This document shows positions 5,368-54,574 of a stretch of 64,000 nt of DNA, piece after piece (position 1 is the stretch's first letter; every line of letters starts with the position of its first letter). The position numbers and the translations under genes are program-made. The stretch spans positions 37,710 to 101,709 of IMG/VR virus record IMGVR_UViG_3300034107_000136; one strand, 5' to 3'. The notes below the pieces were generated by a model. That model was not told where the DNA came from, did no database searches, and saw nothing but the letters and a program-made list of their open reading frames with translations. This stretch comes from a virus.

Positions 5368-5709
5368 ATGGCTACTACAGTTTTTGAAAAGACAGATCTT
5401 GTACTTATGGATGGCACAAAAATATCTATGCGTCCATTAAAGATTTCACTCCTTCGTAAGTTCATGAAGAAGTTCGATACCGTTGTTGAGGTTGCCTCAA
5501 GTAACGTTGATTCAATGGATGTACTTATTGATTGTGCATTGATTGCAATGGAGCAGTACGCCCCAGATCTTTCAACAGATCGTGAGAAGTTTGAAGATGT
5601 TGCTGACATTAAGATGGTTTACAAGATCATTGAAGTTGCTTCTGGTATCAAGTTGGACGCAGAGGGAAACGATCAGGCGATGGCGGCGGCACTACTTGGT
5701 CAGAACTAG
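5368..5709 (+). CDS. Tail assembly chaperone, short (zero-frame) form
   Basis: 113 residues, the counterpart of lambda gpG. It lies between the tail tube and tape measure genes. In the classical system most ribosomes make this form while a minority shift frame to make a longer gpGT-like product; both help the tape measure and tail tube assemble. The helical sequence MRPLKISLLRKFMKKFDTVVEV and ending ALLGQN suit this role. The frameshift site lies near the end of this gene at 5664-5670. Confidence 0.85.
   Translation: MATTVFEKTDLVLMDGTKISMRPLKISLLRKFMKKFDTVVEVASSNVDSMDVLIDCALIAMEQYAPDLSTDREKFEDVADIKMVYKIIEVASGIKLDAEGNDQAMAAALLGQN
5664..5670 (+). promoter_or_regulatory. Programmed -1 frameshift slippery site (GGGAAAC)
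   Basis: The heptamer G GGA AAC is in the correct phase (codons GGA 5665-5667, AAC 5668-5670). The -1 frame then stays open to 6071. XXXYYYZ heptamers of this type, including lambda's GGGAAAG, drive the tail chaperone shift in many phages. Confidence 0.88.
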
Positions 5710-6071
5710 ACCTCGCTGTCCTTGAATCAGAAATATTTCTTTTAGGTAATTGGAAGGATTATGAAGAATTAGAAGATAATCTTTCTATGCCAGAATTAAC
5801 GGCAACCCTAACAGCAATAAGAGAAAGAGAAAACAATCACAATAAATTCTTAGCAGCAATTCAAGGAATTGACCTTGATGGAGAATCTCAAGAAACCAAA
5901 GGGCAGAAAGAATGGGAAGACCTTAAAGCAAGGGTATTTAGCGGTGGAACTGCAAAAGATTCAAATGATATAACATCCCTTCAAGGGATAAATGCTTCAC
6001 AGGCTGGTTTTGGTATTGGCGCTGGTCTTTCTTACAACAATGTTGGAGATGGATCGGGTAGTTGGGCATGA
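5670..6071 (+). CDS. Tail assembly chaperone, frameshift extension (T domain)
   Basis: This is the -1 frame continuation of the gene at 5368. The full product would be join(5368..5670, 5670..6071), 234 residues. After the slip the frame reads RSGDGGGTTWSELDLAVLESEIFLLGNW, a flexible linker and then an acidic helical domain. An ATG at 5787 exists but lacks a ribosome site and would cut the domain. As in lambda gpT, the extension is expected to contact tail tube subunits or the tape measure. Confidence 0.82.
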   Translation, partial: RSGDGGGTTWSELDLAVLESEIFLLGNWKDYEELEDNLSMPELTATLTAIRERENNHNKFLAAIQGIDLDGESQETKGQKEWEDLKARVFSGGTAKDSNDITSLQGINASQAGFGIGAGLSYNNVGDGSGSWA

Positions 6072-47968: not shown

Positions 47969-48042
47969 GCGAATGTTGCATAATGGCAGTGCCTCAGTTT
48001 TCCAAACTGATAGCGCGGGTTCGATTCCCGCCATTCGCTCCA
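47969..48042 (+). tRNA. tRNA-Gly (TCC)
   Basis: Acceptor GCGAATG/CATTCGC, T arm GCGGG-TTCGATT-CCCGC, anticodon stem TCAGT/ACTGA with loop TTTCCAA. CCA is encoded at 48040-48042. Confidence 0.93.
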
Positions 48043-48043
48043 C

Positions 48044-48115
48044 ACCTCTGTAGTTCAATGGATGAACAGTTGGTTTCTACCCAATATGATGCAGGTTCGA
48101 ATCCTGTCAGGGGTA
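48044..48115 (+). tRNA. tRNA-Arg (TCT)
   Basis: Acceptor ACCTCTG/CAGGGGT with one wobble; anticodon loop TTTCTAC in stem GTTGG/CCAAT; T arm GCAGG-TTCGAAT-CCTGT. It reads AGA, a codon common in this AT-rich genome. No encoded CCA. Confidence 0.9.
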
Positions 48116-48178
48116 CTTAAAATAGGGTACAATATAAATGCTTATCACCTCTGACACGATCATGTGATAGGCACTTAA

Positions 48179-48252
48179 CTACTTGTGGGAAAGTTTGGCA
48201 ATCCGTCTGTTTTGGGAACAGAAGAACGCAGGTTCAATTCCTGCCAAGTAGA
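48179..48252 (+). tRNA. tRNA-Pro (TGG)
   Basis: Perfect acceptor CTACTTG/CAAGTAG, anticodon loop TTTGGGA in stem TCTGT/ACAGA, T arm GCAGG-TTCAATT-CCTGC. The 63 bases before it hold a -10-like TACAAT and a TATCAC/GTGATA hairpin. Confidence 0.92.
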
Positions 48253-48256
48253 CGTA

Positions 48257-48329
48257 CGGGCATTAGTAGACTGGTTTAGCACGTCACCCTGATAAGGTGA
48301 AGAAGGTGGTTCAATTCCATCATGCCCGA
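48257..48329 (+). tRNA. tRNA-Ile (GAT)
   Basis: Acceptor CGGGCAT/ATGCCCG, anticodon loop CTGATAA in stem TCACC/GGTGA, T arm GGTGG-TTCAATT-CCATC. No encoded CCA. Confidence 0.92.
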
Positions 48330-48341
48330 CGTTAGCACGCA

Positions 48342-48387
48342 AGAGTACGCCAATAGTTACCTAATCAGATAAGTATTAGCGTACTCT
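48342..48387 (+). other. Hairpin between tRNA-Ile and tRNA-Ala
   Basis: AGAGTACGC (48342-48350) pairs perfectly with GCGTACTCT (48379-48387); inner AATA/TATT pairing extends it. It may be a processing signal or stable spacer in the tRNA precursor. No T-run follows, so it is not a clear terminator. Confidence 0.65.
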
Positions 48388-48390
48388 CAA

Positions 48391-48463
48391 GGGGATATAA
48401 CTCAGTTGGTAGAGTGTCTGCTTTGCAAGCAGAAAGTCGCAGGTTCGAATCCTGTTATCTCCA
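48391..48463 (+). tRNA. tRNA-Ala (TGC)
   Basis: Acceptor GGGGATA/TATCTCC, D arm ACTC/GAGT, anticodon loop TTTGCAA in stem TCTGC/GCAGA, T arm GCAGG-TTCGAAT-CCTGT. Confidence 0.95.
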
Positions 48464-48465
48464 CG

Positions 48466-48540
48466 GTGACAGTAGTGTATGGGATGGCACAGCAAACTGT
48501 GGCTTTGCTAGACAGGGTTCGACTCCCTGCTGTCACACCA
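48466..48540 (+). tRNA. tRNA-His (GTG)
   Basis: Acceptor GTGACAG/CTGTCAC, anticodon loop CTGTGGC in stem GCAAA/TTTGC, T arm CAGGG-TTCGACT-CCCTG, CCA encoded at 48538-48540. A G precedes position 1, as needed for histidine tRNA, but the discriminator base is A rather than the usual C. Confidence 0.92.
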
Positions 48541-48541
48541 C

Positions 48542-48616
48542 ACCTCCGTAACTCAGTTTGGATAGAGTATCACGCTACGAACGTGAAAGCCATAGGTTCA
48601 AATCCTATCGGGGGTA
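48542..48616 (+). tRNA. tRNA-Arg (ACG)
   Basis: Acceptor ACCTCCG/CGGGGGT, anticodon loop CTACGAA in stem TCACG/CGTGA, T arm ATAGG-TTCAAAT-CCTAT. A34 would need deamination to inosine by host TadA to read CGN codons. Confidence 0.93.
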
Positions 48617-48621
48617 CGTTG

Positions 48622-48704
48622 GGAAGATTGGCAGAGTGGTTATTGCAGCGGATTGCTAATCCGTGAGTCGTAAGGCTCCATAGGTTCGAATCCTATATCT
48701 TCCG
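48622..48704 (+). tRNA. tRNA-Ser (GCT)
   Basis: Acceptor GGAAGAT/ATCTTCC, anticodon loop TTGCTAA in stem GCGGA/TCCGT, long variable arm GAGTCGTAAGGCTC, T arm ATAGG-TTCGAAT-CCTAT. Discriminator G, right for serine. Confidence 0.94.
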
Positions 48705-48735
48705 CGCAAAGAATGGTTGGATATGAACACCAATA

Positions 48736-48744
48736 TGGTATAAT
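48736..48744 (+). promoter_or_regulatory. Extended -10 promoter of an HNH gene
   Basis: TGGTATAAT, six bases before the ATG at 48751; a weak TTGGAT lies 16 bases upstream of the -10. Leaderless arrangement. Confidence 0.7.
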
Positions 48745-48750
48745 ATCCAT

Positions 48751-49179
48751 ATGAGAATTTGCAGTCAATGTAAAGAGAGTTTAGATGAGTCTAACTTCTA
48801 TGAAAGAAAGCGTGGTGGCAAGCAAGCCATCTGTATTTCTTGTAGAAAGATTTTAAATGAAATAAATTATCAAAACAATAAGAACAAAGTAATGGATAAT
48901 AAAAATCAGCGGATTGAAAGAAATAGAAAATTCATTGTTAGCATTTTAAGAATGGGCTGCGTTGACTGCAATAGTAAGGATATTCGAGTATTAGAGTTTG
49001 ATCATCTAAGAAATAAAACACTCGGTATAGCACAAATGAGATCTCATTCATTAGAAAGACTTAAAGAAGAAATAGATAAGTGTGAAGTTGTCTGTGCTAA
49101 TTGTCATAATATTAGAACTTCAGAAAGAAGAGATGACTGGAGACATAGGATATACTTAAAGGAAATGGGAACTATCTAA
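48751..49179 (+). CDS. HNH endonuclease with zinc fingers
   Basis: 142 residues. CSQC/CISC in the first 30 residues form one zinc site. CVDC near 69-72 and CANCHNIRTSERR near 118-130 frame the HNH core with FDHLRNKTLG between. This is a free-standing HNH endonuclease inserted in the tRNA cluster. Leaderless, with its own promoter; the stop overlaps the next gene by one base. Confidence 0.83.
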   Translation: MRICSQCKESLDESNFYERKRGGKQAICISCRKILNEINYQNNKNKVMDNKNQRIERNRKFIVSILRMGCVDCNSKDIRVLEFDHLRNKTLGIAQMRSHSLERLKEEIDKCEVVCANCHNIRTSERRDDWRHRIYLKEMGTI

Positions 49180-49616
49180 TGAGTACTGTGCTAGTTCTTA
49201 ATGCTGGTTTCGAACCACTTCACAGAGTAAGTATTCAACACGCTATTCGTATGCTCGTTAGAGAAGTTGCAGTAGTTGAAGAATCAATAGATGATAAAAC
49301 AATAGGACACTTTCCATTCCCTTTGGTTTTAAGGTTAGTTAGATATGTTAAGTTAAATTGGAGATCATCAACTCCTAAGTGGTCGAAAAGAAGATTGCTT
49401 GAAAGAGATCACTACTGCTGTGTGTACTGTGGAAAGCAGGCCACAACAGTCGATCATGTTATTCCTCGTGTCAATGGTGGAGAAACAACTTGGCTCAACA
49501 CTGTGTCAGCATGTTTACGTTGTAATGGTAAAAAGGGTTCAAGTAGTATTGAAAAAAGCGGAATGAAATTAGCAAGACAACCGTTTAAACCAACATGGAA
49601 AGACATAACGCACTAA
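49179..49616 (+). CDS. HNH endonuclease (YxCG...VDH type)
   Basis: 145 residues, TAATG overlap. The C-terminal half has CVYCGKQATTVDHVIPRVNGG and WLNTVSACLRCNGKKG, the classical HNH signature with two CxxC pairs. The N-terminal half (LVLNAGFEPLHRVSIQHAIRML) is common in actinobacterial and actinophage HNH proteins. Its stop codon is directly followed by the first base of tRNA-Tyr. Confidence 0.88.
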   Translation: MSTVLVLNAGFEPLHRVSIQHAIRMLVREVAVVEESIDDKTIGHFPFPLVLRLVRYVKLNWRSSTPKWSKRRLLERDHYCCVYCGKQATTVDHVIPRVNGGETTWLNTVSACLRCNGKKGSSSIEKSGMKLARQPFKPTWKDITH

Positions 49617-49697
49617 GCCTGATATGCTCCAAGGTGGGGCAGGAGACTGTAAATCTCTCGCGGTATCGCATGGTAGGTTCGATCCCTACATCAGGCA
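49617..49697 (+). tRNA. tRNA-Tyr (GTA)
   Basis: Acceptor GCCTGAT/ATCAGGC, anticodon loop CTGTAAA, long variable arm, T arm GTAGG-TTCGATC-CCTAC. It begins on the base right after the HNH stop codon, so RNA processing and coding share a boundary. Confidence 0.92.
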
Positions 49698-49724
49698 CAC
49701 TAATAAAAACTACGAAGGGATGCT

Positions 49725-49985
49725 ATGATGAAGAATACTATGGTTGATAATAGTAAGGTCAAAGATACTATTGTTGATGAGGTCAGTCCATCAAAAGTTC
49801 TTAATGCAAATGATCGTTGTGATTATTGTGGAAGTCAGGCATATTTTTGGGTAAACGGAATCAATGGAGATCTGTTGTTCTGCCGTCATGACTTTCTTAA
49901 ATGGGAAGATAAGTTGCGAGCATATGCTTTTGAGATTCTAGATGAAAGTCACAAGTTGGGCATTAAAGTAGAGTCATCTGCTTGA
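49725..49985 (+). CDS. Small zinc protein (DUF7455-like)
   Basis: 86 residues. After an acidic N-terminus, DRCDYCGSQAYFWVNG and LLFCRHDFLKWEDKL give a C-x2-C ... C-x1-H zinc site, the pattern of small actinobacterial proteins of the DUF7455 type. Ribosome site GAAGGGA. Function unknown. Confidence 0.75.
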   Translation: MMKNTMVDNSKVKDTIVDEVSPSKVLNANDRCDYCGSQAYFWVNGINGDLLFCRHDFLKWEDKLRAYAFEILDESHKLGIKVESSA

Positions 49986-50010
49986 CCTATAACTAAACAG
50001 TGTGTATAAT
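49982..50010 (+). promoter_or_regulatory. Sigma70-type promoter of the second tRNA group
   Basis: TTGACC (49982-49987), a 17-base spacer, TATAAT (50005-50010), six bases before tRNA-Trp. The -35 overlaps the stop codon of the previous gene. Confidence 0.82.
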
Positions 50011-50016
50011 ATAAAT

Positions 50017-50087
50017 GCGGTCTTGGTGTAGAGGTAACACAATTGTCTCCAAAGCAATTATCAAGAGTTCGATTCTCTTAGACCGTG
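50017..50087 (+). tRNA. tRNA-Trp (CCA)
   Basis: Acceptor GCGGTCT/AGACCGT, anticodon loop CTCCAAA in stem ATTGT/GCAAT, T arm AAGAG-TTCGATT-CTCTT. Confidence 0.92.
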
Positions 50088-50215
50088 CGATCATGCTTTT
50101 TCGAAGGCATTCATGAAATAGGTTCATGACTGGAATGACAGATAACAGGACTTACCTCCCGATAGTGTTGCAAAGTAGAGTCTAGAATCAAAATGCTAAA
50201 TTCGGTCTGTCACAT
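50088..50215 (+). ncRNA. Unexplained transcribed spacer between two tRNAs
   Basis: 128 bases with no good reading frame and no complete tRNA. TGACAGA near 50137 can pair with TCTGTCA near 50205, closing a large loop. GTGTTGC near 50166 can also pair with GCAACAC after tRNA-Thr (50290). It may be a structured spacer or a decayed tRNA or intron remnant. Nothing more can be supported. Confidence 0.35.
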
Positions 50216-50288
50216 TCCTCAGTAACTCAGCGGTCAGAGTTCTTCACTTGTAATGAAGGGGTCGGGGGTTCGACTCCCTCCTGAGGAT
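50216..50288 (+). tRNA. tRNA-Thr (TGT)
   Basis: Perfect acceptor TCCTCAG/CTGAGGA, anticodon loop CTTGTAA in stem CTTCA/TGAAG, T arm GGGGG-TTCGACT-CCCTC (one wobble). Confidence 0.94.
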
Positions 50289-50371
50289 CGCAACACCTAT
50301 AGACGGGGATATCCCCCGTTAAATCTCCGCTGGCATATCGGGGAGTTAAGAGTACTCAATATATGCCACTT

Positions 50372-50447
50372 GGCCCGTTGGAGTAGTGGTTATCTCACCT
50401 GACTTTCAATCAGGAGAAGGTCGGATCGTAACCGACACGGGCTACCA
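50372..50447 (+). tRNA. tRNA-Glu (TTC)
   Basis: Acceptor GGCCCGT/ACGGGCT, anticodon loop CTTTCAA in stem CCTGA/TCAGG, CCA encoded at 50445-50447. The T loop is ATCGTAA instead of TTCGAAN, an exchange of the 54-58 pair. The spacer before it contains the inverted repeat TGGCATAT/ATATGCCA. Confidence 0.88.
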
Positions 50448-50448
50448 A

Positions 50449-50520
50449 GGATGATTAACTCAACGGTAGAGTGATTGCTTTACATGCAATTGGTTGGGGG
50501 TTCGAATCCCTCATCATCCA
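50449..50520 (+). tRNA. tRNA-Val (TAC)
   Basis: Acceptor GGATGAT/ATCATCC, anticodon loop TTTACAT in stem ATTGC/GCAAT, T arm GGGGG-TTCGAAT-CCCTC. Confidence 0.94.
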
Positions 50521-50541
50521 CTCCAACTATCAAAGGAAATC

Positions 50542-51060
50542 ATGAACGTTGTTGATGAATTCAAGGGCATGATGCTTGAAGATATTAAGTATCAGATAGA
50601 TCTTAAGAGAGCAGATTTCACATCAGTCTTTCTTAACCTTACTCATGACTTTAATAAAGCGGTAGGTGTTCGTAATCACAATGCTTTTGCTGGTAAGGAT
50701 ATTTGGTTTGTTGGACGCAAGCAGTGGGATAAGCGTGGTTCAGTTGGAACATATCACTATGAGGATATTCACTATGCCAGTAACTGGGACAATTTTATTT
50801 TGCATAAGCCAGATGGACCACTCATCTGTGTGGACAATGTGGGCGACATACGTCAGGTTTCTCTAGGTTCATTTGACATTCCTTATAATTCTATCTTTGT
50901 TTACGGGGAGGAGGGATCGGGAATACCTCAGGAAATCCTAGATCAGGCAGATTATATCCTTAATGTACCAATGTGGGGTAGTGTTAGGTCATTGAATGTA
51001 AGCGTAACAAGTGGTATTATTATGTACGAGTATAGAAGACAGCATTCCCCGCTGGTGTAA
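50542..51060 (+). CDS. SpoU/TrmH-family RNA 2'-O-methyltransferase
   Basis: 172 residues from the ATG at 50542, with ribosome site AAAGGAAA. The SPOUT knot is clear: VYGEEGSGIPQEIL near 118-131 and VPMWGSVRSLNVSVTSGIIMYEY near 142-164, the motifs 2 and 3 of SpoU enzymes. The family methylates ribose in tRNA or rRNA with SAM. It sits inside the tRNA cluster and its last 15 bases are also the 5' end of tRNA-Gln, so phage tRNAs are the obvious candidate substrate. Confidence 0.88.
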   Translation: MNVVDEFKGMMLEDIKYQIDLKRADFTSVFLNLTHDFNKAVGVRNHNAFAGKDIWFVGRKQWDKRGSVGTYHYEDIHYASNWDNFILHKPDGPLICVDNVGDIRQVSLGSFDIPYNSIFVYGEEGSGIPQEILDQADYILNVPMWGSVRSLNVSVTSGIIMYEYRRQHSPLV

Positions 51061-51117
51061 TCGGCAACACGGCTGATTCTGGATCAGCAATACGAGGATC
51101 GTAACCTTGGCGGGGAG
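51046..51117 (+). tRNA. tRNA-Gln (CTG)
   Basis: Acceptor TCCCCGC/GCGGGGA, anticodon loop TTCTGGA in stem GCTGA/TCAGC, T arm CGAGG-ATCGTAA-CCTTG with the same unusual T loop as tRNA-Glu. Its first 15 bases overlap the end of the SpoU gene. Confidence 0.88.
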
Positions 51118-51138
51118 CGCAATAGAAAAAATAAATAT

Positions 51139-51209
51139 TTCCCGTTCGTCTAATGGCAAGACGATTGGCCTTGGACCAATTAATCGAAGTTCGAATCTTT
51201 GACGGGAAG
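51139..51209 (+). tRNA. tRNA-Gln (TTG)
   Basis: Acceptor TTCCCGT/ACGGGAA, anticodon stem ATTGG/CCAAT with loop CCTTGGA, T arm CGAAG-TTCGAAT-CTTTG. Position 33 is C, not the near-universal U, which is unusual for a working tRNA. Confidence 0.84.
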
Positions 51210-51217
51210 CAAAGCGG

Positions 51218-51223
51218 TATAAT
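51218..51223 (+). promoter_or_regulatory. -10 promoter of the sulfotransferase gene
   Basis: TATAAT nine bases after tRNA-Gln and six bases before the ATG at 51230. Leaderless arrangement. Confidence 0.7.
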
Positions 51224-51229
51224 TAACTA

Positions 51230-51988
51230 ATGATTATCAGCCCATCAAGAAACTTTATATTTATCCACCTAGAAAAATGTGGCGGCACATCAATAGAGTC
51301 AGCACTAGAACCACATCTATATTGGTCAGATATGATTCTTGGCAGTACAGATTTTGGTGAAAGAATGCAACAACTATACTATGATCGATACAGTCGTGAA
51401 GAGGTAAATGAATATATGTTGTGGAAGCATTCAACTGCAAAAGATATTCATGCATTCATTGGACACGACGAGTGGAATTCACTCAATAAAATATCTACCG
51501 TAAGAAATCCAGAAGATCTAATCATCTCTTTATATAAGTTTTCAAGAATGACAATTAAATATCATATTGGTAGAATTCATAGGTCAACTTGGAAAGACTA
51601 TTTAATGTCAGAAAACTTTCCACAGGTATATCCCTATACAGAAGGTTATATTCATGCCTATGTTGAATCACATATGGACGATAAGGGTATCAACGGTTTT
51701 GTAAATATACTATTAGATAAAGATTATCAATTTATTAAGCCTCAATTTGAAAGATTAAAGATAGATAGCAATACAAATATAGGCCGTGTGTTTGATTTAT
51801 CTGATATAGATAATGGGTGGCAAGAGATTCTCGAAATGCTAGATCTTCCTTGGTACACACAATTAGAAAAACTTAACTCAAGTGAGCATGTAGACGTTGA
51901 ACTATCTAGTAGATCAAAAAAAATAATTAAAAAGCATTTTGCTATTGACTATGATGTGCTTCCACAGTATACTGGTATCAATTGGTAA
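51230..51988 (+). CDS. Sulfotransferase family protein
   Basis: 252 residues. The 5' phosphosulfate-binding loop FIHLEKCGGTSIESAL spans residues 11-26 and the 3' phosphate-binding motif STVRNPEDLIISLYKF lies near 89-104, matching PAPS-dependent sulfotransferases. It would move sulfate to a sugar, lipid or protein. The enzyme sits with tRNAs and close to glycan enzymes, suggesting modification of cell-surface glycans. Leaderless. Confidence 0.85.
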   Translation: MIISPSRNFIFIHLEKCGGTSIESALEPHLYWSDMILGSTDFGERMQQLYYDRYSREEVNEYMLWKHSTAKDIHAFIGHDEWNSLNKISTVRNPEDLIISLYKFSRMTIKYHIGRIHRSTWKDYLMSENFPQVYPYTEGYIHAYVESHMDDKGINGFVNILLDKDYQFIKPQFERLKIDSNTNIGRVFDLSDIDNGWQEILEMLDLPWYTQLEKLNSSEHVDVELSSRSKKIIKKHFAIDYDVLPQYTGINW

Positions 51989-51994
51989 AAACAT

Positions 51995-52068
51995 GCGAGT
52001 GTATCCCAGCGGCTAGAGGACGACGGCTCAAAACCGTTGTGTCGTGGGTTCGAATCCCACCACTCGTA
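51995..52068 (+). tRNA. tRNA-Leu (CAA), short variable arm
   Basis: Acceptor GCGAGTG/CACTCGT, T arm GTGGG-TTCGAAT-CCCAC, anticodon stem GACGG/CCGTT with loop CTCAAAA. The CAA anticodon means leucine, yet the variable region is only five bases, whereas bacterial tRNA-Leu normally has a long arm. Confidence 0.82.
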
Positions 52069-52124
52069 CAATAGTTAGACCAGACAATGTACGGACATTT
52101 AATATAAAATAATAAAAACCCTCA

Positions 52125-52164: not shown

Positions 52165-52182
52165 TCTCCTAAAAAAAGGAGA
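52165..52182 (+). promoter_or_regulatory. Hairpin that could hide the ribosome site
   Basis: TCTCCT (52165-52170) pairs with AGGAGA (52177-52182) across six A residues. The second arm is the Shine-Dalgarno of the gene at 52192, so folding would limit translation. Confidence 0.5.
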
Positions 52183-52191
52183 TGCGTGTAA

Positions 52192-52908
52192 ATGAGGAAG
52201 AATGTGTTAATAGGTTTAATATTTTGGTTAGTAGTAGTTGTTATTGCGGTAACGGCAATTCTTATGACAACAGATGCTAAGGCAGAATCCGATAAGGTAA
52301 AAATATGCCATGCAACATCATCTGAAAAGAATCCATATACGAAAAATGAAGTGGATGTATCAAGCATAAATAATGAAAAGAATAAGTATCTTAATGGTCA
52401 TGGTGATCATGAAAGAGACATCATTCCACCTTTCACTTACGAGTCATCTTCTTTTGAAGGAAGAAATTGGGATGATGCGGGTAAGAAGATATGGGAGAAT
52501 GGCTGCAACATTGTAGAGCCAAGCCCAACACCCACTCCTACCCCCACACCTACCTCAACTCCAACACCTACTGTTACCCCAACACCCACAATTACACCCA
52601 CGCCTACAGCGAGTCCTACACCTACCATAACGCCAACAGAAACACCAACAGCGTCTAGCAGCCCTACTCCCACAGTAGTGCCTAATCCACCCTATGTGCC
52701 GCCTGTTATAGTGCCTGTGCCAAGTAATCCTGTAACACCAACAGTAGTTCCAGAGCCAACTATGACTCAAGAGCCAACACCAATGCCAACAGTAACACCA
52801 GCACCAGTTCCAAGTCCTACAAAGACACCAATGCCAATTCCTACAGCAGTTGATGCTGGCGGGGGAGGGATGGTGGAGATTCCTTTTTTAACATCAAAGC
52901 CCCGCTGA
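52192..52908 (+). CDS. Surface stalk protein, zero-frame product of the sortase locus
   Basis: 238 residues. A hydrophobic N-terminal segment (residues 5-24, signal peptide or anchor) is followed by a Cys-His domain ([33 protein letters not shown]; about 36-105) of a kind seen in actinobacterial surface proteins. Then comes a Thr/Pro stalk of roughly 110 residues with repeated PTPT units. The frame ends TSKPR after a perfect slippery site, and the next frame encodes a sortase domain. The zero-frame form would be a sortase-less surface protein. Confidence 0.78.
52884..52890 (+). promoter_or_regulatory. Predicted -1 frameshift site TTTTTTA
   Basis: The heptamer T TTT TTA is exactly in phase (CCT TTT TTA). 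Ten bases later a hairpin can form (52901-52907 with 52912-52919, one bulge), enclosing the zero-frame stop. The -1 frame enters the conserved start of a sortase domain. Confidence 0.75.
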
Positions 52909-53345
52909 TTCCAGTAGGGATAAAAAAGGACAACTCAGTAGACATTCCAGAGGATATATCAACGGTGGGTTGGTATAAATATGGAGCGGCCCCAGGCTCA
53001 AAGGGGGGGTCAACTGTCATCGTAGGACACCGAGATGGCACTGATCCTGAGCCTGGGGCTTTTTACTATCTTAATAAGTTAAGCAGTAAAAATTCCATTG
53101 TGATTGAATACTTAAATTATACAGCAATCTATGCAGTAAAGAGTGTAAATATAATAAGTAAAAAGAATTTTTATAAAATATCTAAAGATATATTTTCACT
53201 AAAGGGTAAGCCAAGAATTACATTGATAAGTTGTATTGGTCCATATGATAAAAATAAGGGCGGGTATCAGAAGAACATTATTGTTACTGCTGAGCCATTG
53301 ACGGGATACCCTTGGATACTCTACAATAGAGATCTAGACGGATAA
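52890..53345 (+). CDS. Class F-like sortase domain reached by -1 frameshift
   Basis: Full product join(52192..52890, 52890..53345), 384 residues. After the slip the frame reads [20 protein letters not shown] and [13 protein letters not shown], the normal N-terminal strands of class E/F sortases. The catalytic His is in VIVGHRDG and the Cys in [10 protein letters not shown]. The usual Arg position (YRDNVVV in relatives) reads YQKNIIV, so the third catalytic residue seems replaced. A GTG at 52965 would cut off conserved strands, supporting the frameshift. It would be a membrane-tethered, stalked transpeptidase facing outward. Confidence 0.75.
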
Positions 53346-54300: not shown

Positions 54301-54560
54301 GGGGATGAAAGGTTTCGACCTTGTTGGAATATGTGTGCGGCGTTTCAAGTGGAGTCTTGTAAACTACCAAATTATAATAAATGCAAATACACAAAACGCA
54401 TTCGCCCTAGCAGCATAAGGGCCGTGTGGCAACGGCATAGGAACAGAATCGTTGCATAAAGCACCACAATGTAGTACAATTGCTTTAAACGCTAGAGCAT
54501 AAACGTAACTGTTACACATAGGAATACAATGGGACAGGGGTTCGACTCCCCTCATCTCCA
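54301..54560 (+). ncRNA. ssrA: tmRNA (ssrA)
   Basis: 260 bases. The 5' end GGGGATGAAAGGTTTCGACC and the 3' end GGGGTTCGACTCCCCTCATCTCC form the tRNA-like domain (acceptor GGGGATG/CATCTCC). The resume codon at 54383 opens a tag ANTQNAFALAA with TAA at 54416-54418. The tag ending ALAA targets proteins to host proteases. No CCA is encoded. It rescues stalled ribosomes and is shorter than most one-piece bacterial tmRNAs (about 350-400 bases), so some pseudoknots must be missing or reduced. Confidence 0.93.
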
Positions 54561-54574
54561 CTGAAAGGATGGCA

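Follow-up and report, generated by a model that had tools for sequence, protein, structure and literature searches.

An intact sortase in the -1 frame of a phage surface-stalk gene, probably expressed by programmed ribosomal frameshifting

How is a sortase, an enzyme that fixes proteins in the cell wall, translated when its reading frame has no start codon ahead of the domain and is entered from a preceding gene in another frame? This question is raised by a locus in a 64,000-nucleotide stretch of DNA (the window, meaning the whole stretch analysed), which originates from an IMG/VR virus record of 101,709 bases. The window is DNA of a tailed phage, and among its genes are many for tRNAs, one for a tmRNA and a pstS-like gene. 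Relatives of the pstS-like gene (up to 79% identity) come mostly from genomes of freshwater Actinobacteria and Ca. Nanopelagicales, and therefore the host of the phage probably belongs to this group. The tRNA cluster (sixteen genes) and the tmRNA gene occupy positions 47969-52069 and 54301-54561 of the window.

The stalk ORF (52192-52908; this and all features of the gene given below are on the + strand) encodes, in frame 0, a protein of 238 amino acids consisting of a signal segment, a surface domain with the motifs ICHAT, GHGDH and DIIPPF, a Thr/Pro stalk, the motif VDAGGGG and the residues MVEIP before the stop codon. The surface domain (52288-52512) contains invariant Cys and His residues and is common to host surface proteins and other actinophages. 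Its structure was predicted with confidence (pLDDT 84.6), and a search of the PDB with this model gave no significant fold match. The preliminary description had named the first segment a signal or anchor segment. A signal segment is indeed present, but it may be cleaved rather than act as a membrane anchor, because an AXA-type signal-peptidase motif is found there in all three phages (DAKA/E, NAQA/K and ANA/G). The VDAGGGG motif (52849-52869) is sorting-like and aligns with VPAGxG of the host proteins, and its DNA, GGGGGAGGG, is at the same time Shine-Dalgarno-like. In the host proteins a transmembrane segment and a basic tail come after VPAGxG. The frame 0 product of the window carries the motif-like VDAGGGG, but its C-terminus is without the membrane segment and basic tail of a sortase substrate.

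Near the end of the stalk ORF is the slippery heptamer T TTT TTA (52884-52890), located in X XXY YYZ phase as CC[T TTT TTA] ACA, and the stop codon TGA (52906-52908) follows shortly 3' of it. The same sequence, U_UUU_UUA, is the shift site of HIV and shifts in E. coli too, far less than A_AAA_AAG (PMC5009743). Among the codon positions of 25 window genes, 0.48% carry an in-phase heptamer, and at this background rate the probability of one chance heptamer in the stretch concerned is about 0.024.

The open stretch of the -1 frame covers 52854-53345, and the first ATG, GTG or TTG in it is GTG 52965, already inside the sortase domain. From 52890 to 53345 it encodes a class F-type sortase domain with the catalytic His in GHRDG and the catalytic Cys in LISC, which confirms the earlier observation of a stalk ORF ending just after an in-phase TTTTTTA with an intact sortase in the -1 frame. 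The -1 frame matches Sortase PF04203 (1.2e-18), and its best NCBIfam match is the class F family NF033748 (5.6e-28, 97.5 bits, below the curated cut-off of 166). A model of the homologue in L001, a related phage described below, has a pLDDT of 86, and its fold matches solved sortases. The catalytic His and Cys are invariant in 16-17 aligned sequences. At the presumed Arg position the phage has GGYQKN while host homologues have R, Q, E, D or L; the Gln-Lys noted earlier as a peculiarity is thus ordinary, many host class F sortases having Gln or Glu. The sortase is under purifying selection (dN/dS 0.29 against L001). The -1 frame had also been described as opening into the N-terminal strands of the sortase. 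The domain does continue there, but its first strand, VEIP, is still encoded in frame 0, so that the shift point falls within the sortase domain, after that strand.

A first scan of genome contigs found no relative. The closest complete homologue known to us is L001, whose sortase is 74% identical to that of the window. In L001 stalk and sortase form a single frame of 413 residues; the junction reads CCT TCT TTG ATG and is without a heptamer, and at the T tract the junction of the window has one base fewer. The near-identical contig L005/G002 stops inside the stalk, before the junction. L001 is therefore precisely the kind of homologue, with a shared frame for stalk and sortase and without the heptamer, which the preliminary description had said would point to a sequencing error or pseudogene, and because of it the split arrangement is not universal. 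On L001 alone a simple one-base indel was favoured; this view was overturned by a second relative, L076.

L076 belongs to a distant phage (L076/G169, 58,213 b), and its sortase is 47% identical to that of the window. It was retrieved by a search with the N-terminal domain alone, blind to frame, and for this reason provides an independent test. Its stalk ends ...IPAGGGGMAVEVPVLK followed by TAA in frame 0, while the -1 frame encodes an intact sortase, with SHRDG and MITC present and the first start codon of that frame (GTG 5666) inside the domain. The junction, GTC CCC GTT TTA AAA TAA, contains T TTA AAA in phase, adjoining the stop. This heptamer lies one codon later than that of the window, and both frame relations are -1. 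One -1 shift at each junction gives gap-free products in the window and L076 (VEVPVLKINAEIVPVG), which align with the in-frame L001 sequence VKIPSLMVEAPLTPVG and also fit the host pattern V.IP.L.V.A.V.PVG. Likewise, the fused L001 protein maps to frame 0 and then to frame -1 in both G000 and G169. Only two examples of the split arrangement are known (window and L076), and their heptamers differ, which speaks against frameshifting. The joint chance of the heptamers in these two loci is 2.3e-4, a figure which takes into account five possible positions for the window and two for L076 and leaves out the shared -1 frame. Among about 35 ORFs common to G000 and G169, none except the sortase gene is split between frames. 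Comparison with G002, which is of the same lineage (88-95% identity over most aligned stretches), revealed no evident frameshifting indel inside a convincing gene; the indels listed affect intergenic DNA, tRNA genes or short, doubtful ORFs.

Programmed -1 ribosomal frameshifting, yielding the stalk and a stalk-sortase fusion, is in our assessment the best and a highly probable reading of these sequences, because L076 repeats the -1 relation at the corresponding codon with a canonical heptamer, because the joint chance is so low, and because no other shared gene is split. The earlier proposal of such a mechanism is supported for the window and L076 but does not extend to L001.

The frame change could instead have arisen in the DNA. 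Independent one-base indels, or errors of sequencing or assembly, might have disrupted an originally in-frame fusion in both the window and L076, so that each gene would be a recent pseudogene, as the single frame of L001 and the base missing from the T tract of the window junction would suggest; T-rich tracts are indel-prone, and both records are IMG/VR metagenome assemblies. However, such accidents would have had to strike at sites no more than about one codon apart, in each case towards -1 and on an in-phase heptamer, with no further shared gene broken in either genome and the remainder of each sortase intact, including the catalytic His and Cys. We consider this explanation unlikely.

Separate translation of the sortase, by reinitiation or internal initiation past the stalk stop, appears very improbable. 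It would have a parallel in the host sortases, which are separate genes with their own start, and a purine-rich sequence is present 5' of the stop in the window, but the sortase frame offers no ATG, GTG or TTG before the internal GTG codons at 52965 (window) and 5666 (L076), its first strand lies in frame 0, and a sortase freed in this way would, unlike those of the hosts, be without a membrane anchor. Scarcely credible to us is the view that the ribosome plays no part and that slippage at the T6 tract, either in transcription or in replication (phase variation), restores the frame. Both sites match the ribosomal heptamer rule exactly, and T6, like T4A4 in L076, is short for slippage (about nine or more T are cited for transcriptional slippage, and repeat tracts of seven are used; PMC3711429), even though the window does have a homopolymer T tract and surface proteins are commonly phase-variable (PMC3711429).

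Stimulators of frameshifting were sought on both sides of the heptamer, and none that is both close and conserved was found. A small hairpin (52900-52919, -9.3 kcal/mol) begins 9 nt 3' of the heptamer and, as described earlier, contains the frame 0 stop codon; it is a possible, unproven stimulator. Only 1 of 200 shuffles is as stable, while folding over 80 nt at the junction is not unusual (z -0.52). The close hairpin is weaker and further from the heptamer in L076 and a comparable one occurs in the non-shifting, heptamer-less L001, and because of this its role as a stimulator is unconvincing and only weakly supported. Alignment of homologues, which had been suggested as a check, therefore recovers the -1 relation and a heptamer in L076, but neither in L001, and the hairpin is not clearly conserved. 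Upstream, the Shine-Dalgarno-like GGTGGAG of the window is situated 6-8 nt 5' of the heptamer, whereas GGAGG of L076 is about 22 nt away, outside the range of 6-17 nt over which upstream elements of this kind have been tested as stimulatory (PMC4066793).

Another RNA structure is present further 3', inside the sortase coding sequence. This phage-specific, three-part stem-loop (52989-53059, followed by TTTTT; L001 5097-5167; L076 5633-5703) is located 98 nt 3' of the heptamer in the window and 95 nt in L076. In the three phages it is far stabler than synonymous-codon shuffles (z -4.8, -4.4 and -4.3; 0 of 400 as good), whereas the equivalent region of ten host sortases is generally not unusually stable, with one exception (z -2.8). 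From the window to L076, both partners of four stem pairs differ and pairing is retained, that is, the changes are compensatory; compared with L001, the window shows less synonymous change within the stem (p 0.045). An Rfam search of the sequence returned only the upstream tRNA above threshold. An intrinsic terminator was considered and not accepted, as T5 follows the stem in the window and L001 and only TTTCT in L076. It is possible, this poor T tract of L076 notwithstanding, that the stem is a terminator which frameshifted ribosomes cover.

The likely origin of the gene is indicated by the hosts. Class F sortases are common among 166 host-order genomes, and in three of these (L065, L066 and L067) an ICHAT-domain stalk protein is encoded directly 5' of a separate class F sortase. 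At the C-terminus of these stalk proteins VPAG[DGT]G is followed by a membrane segment and then a basic tail, and the adjoining sortase has its own anchor. The two genes of host genome G097 are separate. The sorting-like signal of host stalk proteins has the general form [VI]xAGxG, and VPAG[DGT]G with its membrane segment and basic tail is a candidate for the sorting signal of class F enzymes. The host pairs thus share with the phage gene the same domains in the same order and the VPAGxG motif in the same place. They differ in being separate genes, in the C-terminal membrane segment and basic tail of the substrate and in the anchor of the sortase. The phage keeps the sorting-like motif, and its sortase occupies the place of the host membrane segment and tail. 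Because the host order encodes both parts as separate neighbouring genes, we propose that in the phage a host-type substrate/sortase pair became a single gene.

The sequences themselves show the frame relation, both heptamers, the identity of the domains, the gene pairs of the hosts and the conserved stem in the RNA; we infer the shifting itself, its ratio, the activity of the enzyme, its recognition of a substrate and its effect at the surface. At 52906-52908 the majority of ribosomes would terminate; their product would be a secreted Cys-His domain carried by a Thr/Pro stalk ending VDAGGGG, while a minority would slip one base back at T TTT TTA and make a 384-residue substrate-sortase fusion. 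Frameshifting would then set the ratio of substrate to enzyme, with much substrate and little fusion enzyme, and the sortase, acting in cis or in trans, would link the stalk protein to the envelope of the infected cell. Since L001 is an always-fused form, a need for two products can be claimed only to a limited extent.

The gene looks like a substrate plus substrate-enzyme design in the style of gag/gag-pol. It shares with the -1 frameshift genes of that type the HIV heptamer U UUU UUA, which is identical, and the output of a structural or substrate product together with a minor enzyme-bearing fusion. The phage gene, however, combines a surface protein with a transpeptidase and has candidate stimulators only; the two are analogous, not homologous. 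It is a tentative suggestion that such an output serves the cell wall with the stem in the sortase frame as an added control, for example as a terminator unless frameshifted ribosomes cover it. The tail assembly chaperone G/GT genes resemble it in their -1 frame transition in a phage, with a short and a long product, but encode unrelated proteins that act in virion assembly rather than a secreted surface enzyme. Such a chaperone pair with a -1 transition is itself present just 5' of the tape measure gene in both phages (window 5368-6071; G169 2200-2850), and in both the overlap is without an X XXY YYZ heptamer. Compared with class F sortases of Actinobacteria (NF033748, PF04203), the phage enzyme has the conserved strands, the His of GHRDG and the Cys of LISC, and is 39-48% identical to host-order enzymes. 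Unlike them, it is without its own N-terminal membrane anchor and stands behind a surface-protein stalk, being reached through a frame change.

A GenBank phage collection queried with the sortases of the window and L076 gave no match. The L001 query found three Arthrobacter phages, which match in the N-terminal domain only, and plasmid matches are ordinary class F sortases. In keeping with the preliminary description, a partial literature search found no description of a phage-encoded or frameshifted sortase. The novelty therefore lies in the combination of two known things, a class F sortase and -1 frameshifting, which was not found described. If our reading is true, this would be, as far as could be found, the first case of a sortase produced by recoding, and also the first of a phage gene that unites a wall-anchored surface protein with its own anchoring enzyme. 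No physiological role is known for class F sortases (PMC13251363), and for this reason the substrate-sortase pairs of phage and hosts offer a candidate substrate and motif.

ICHAT-domain surface proteins are also encoded by other phages (L077 4977-5672, L078 4962-5744, L080 4950-5666 and L008 2887-3678). LPxTG-like signals are found on phage ICHAT proteins (LPQTG in L077, LPPTG in L078 and MPDTG in Arthrobacter phage Racecar gp190), which are apparently made for the sortase of the host. Because of these signals, phages of Actinobacteria seem to display ICHAT proteins on the infected cell, the lineage of the window supplying its own enzyme. Our reading, if true, also points to remodelling of the infected cell's surface by phages of abundant freshwater Actinobacteria.

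A second, distant viral record (IMGVR_UViG_3300009988_000032; L073 4845-5432) encodes a stand-alone sortase-like protein of 195 residues with its own ATG, which ends ITCGG...GYEDNIVVTA. A hairpin (window 52165-52182; L076 4947-4973) that is strong only in L076 (z -3.1) and weak in the window and L001 contains the ribosome-binding site of the stalk gene.
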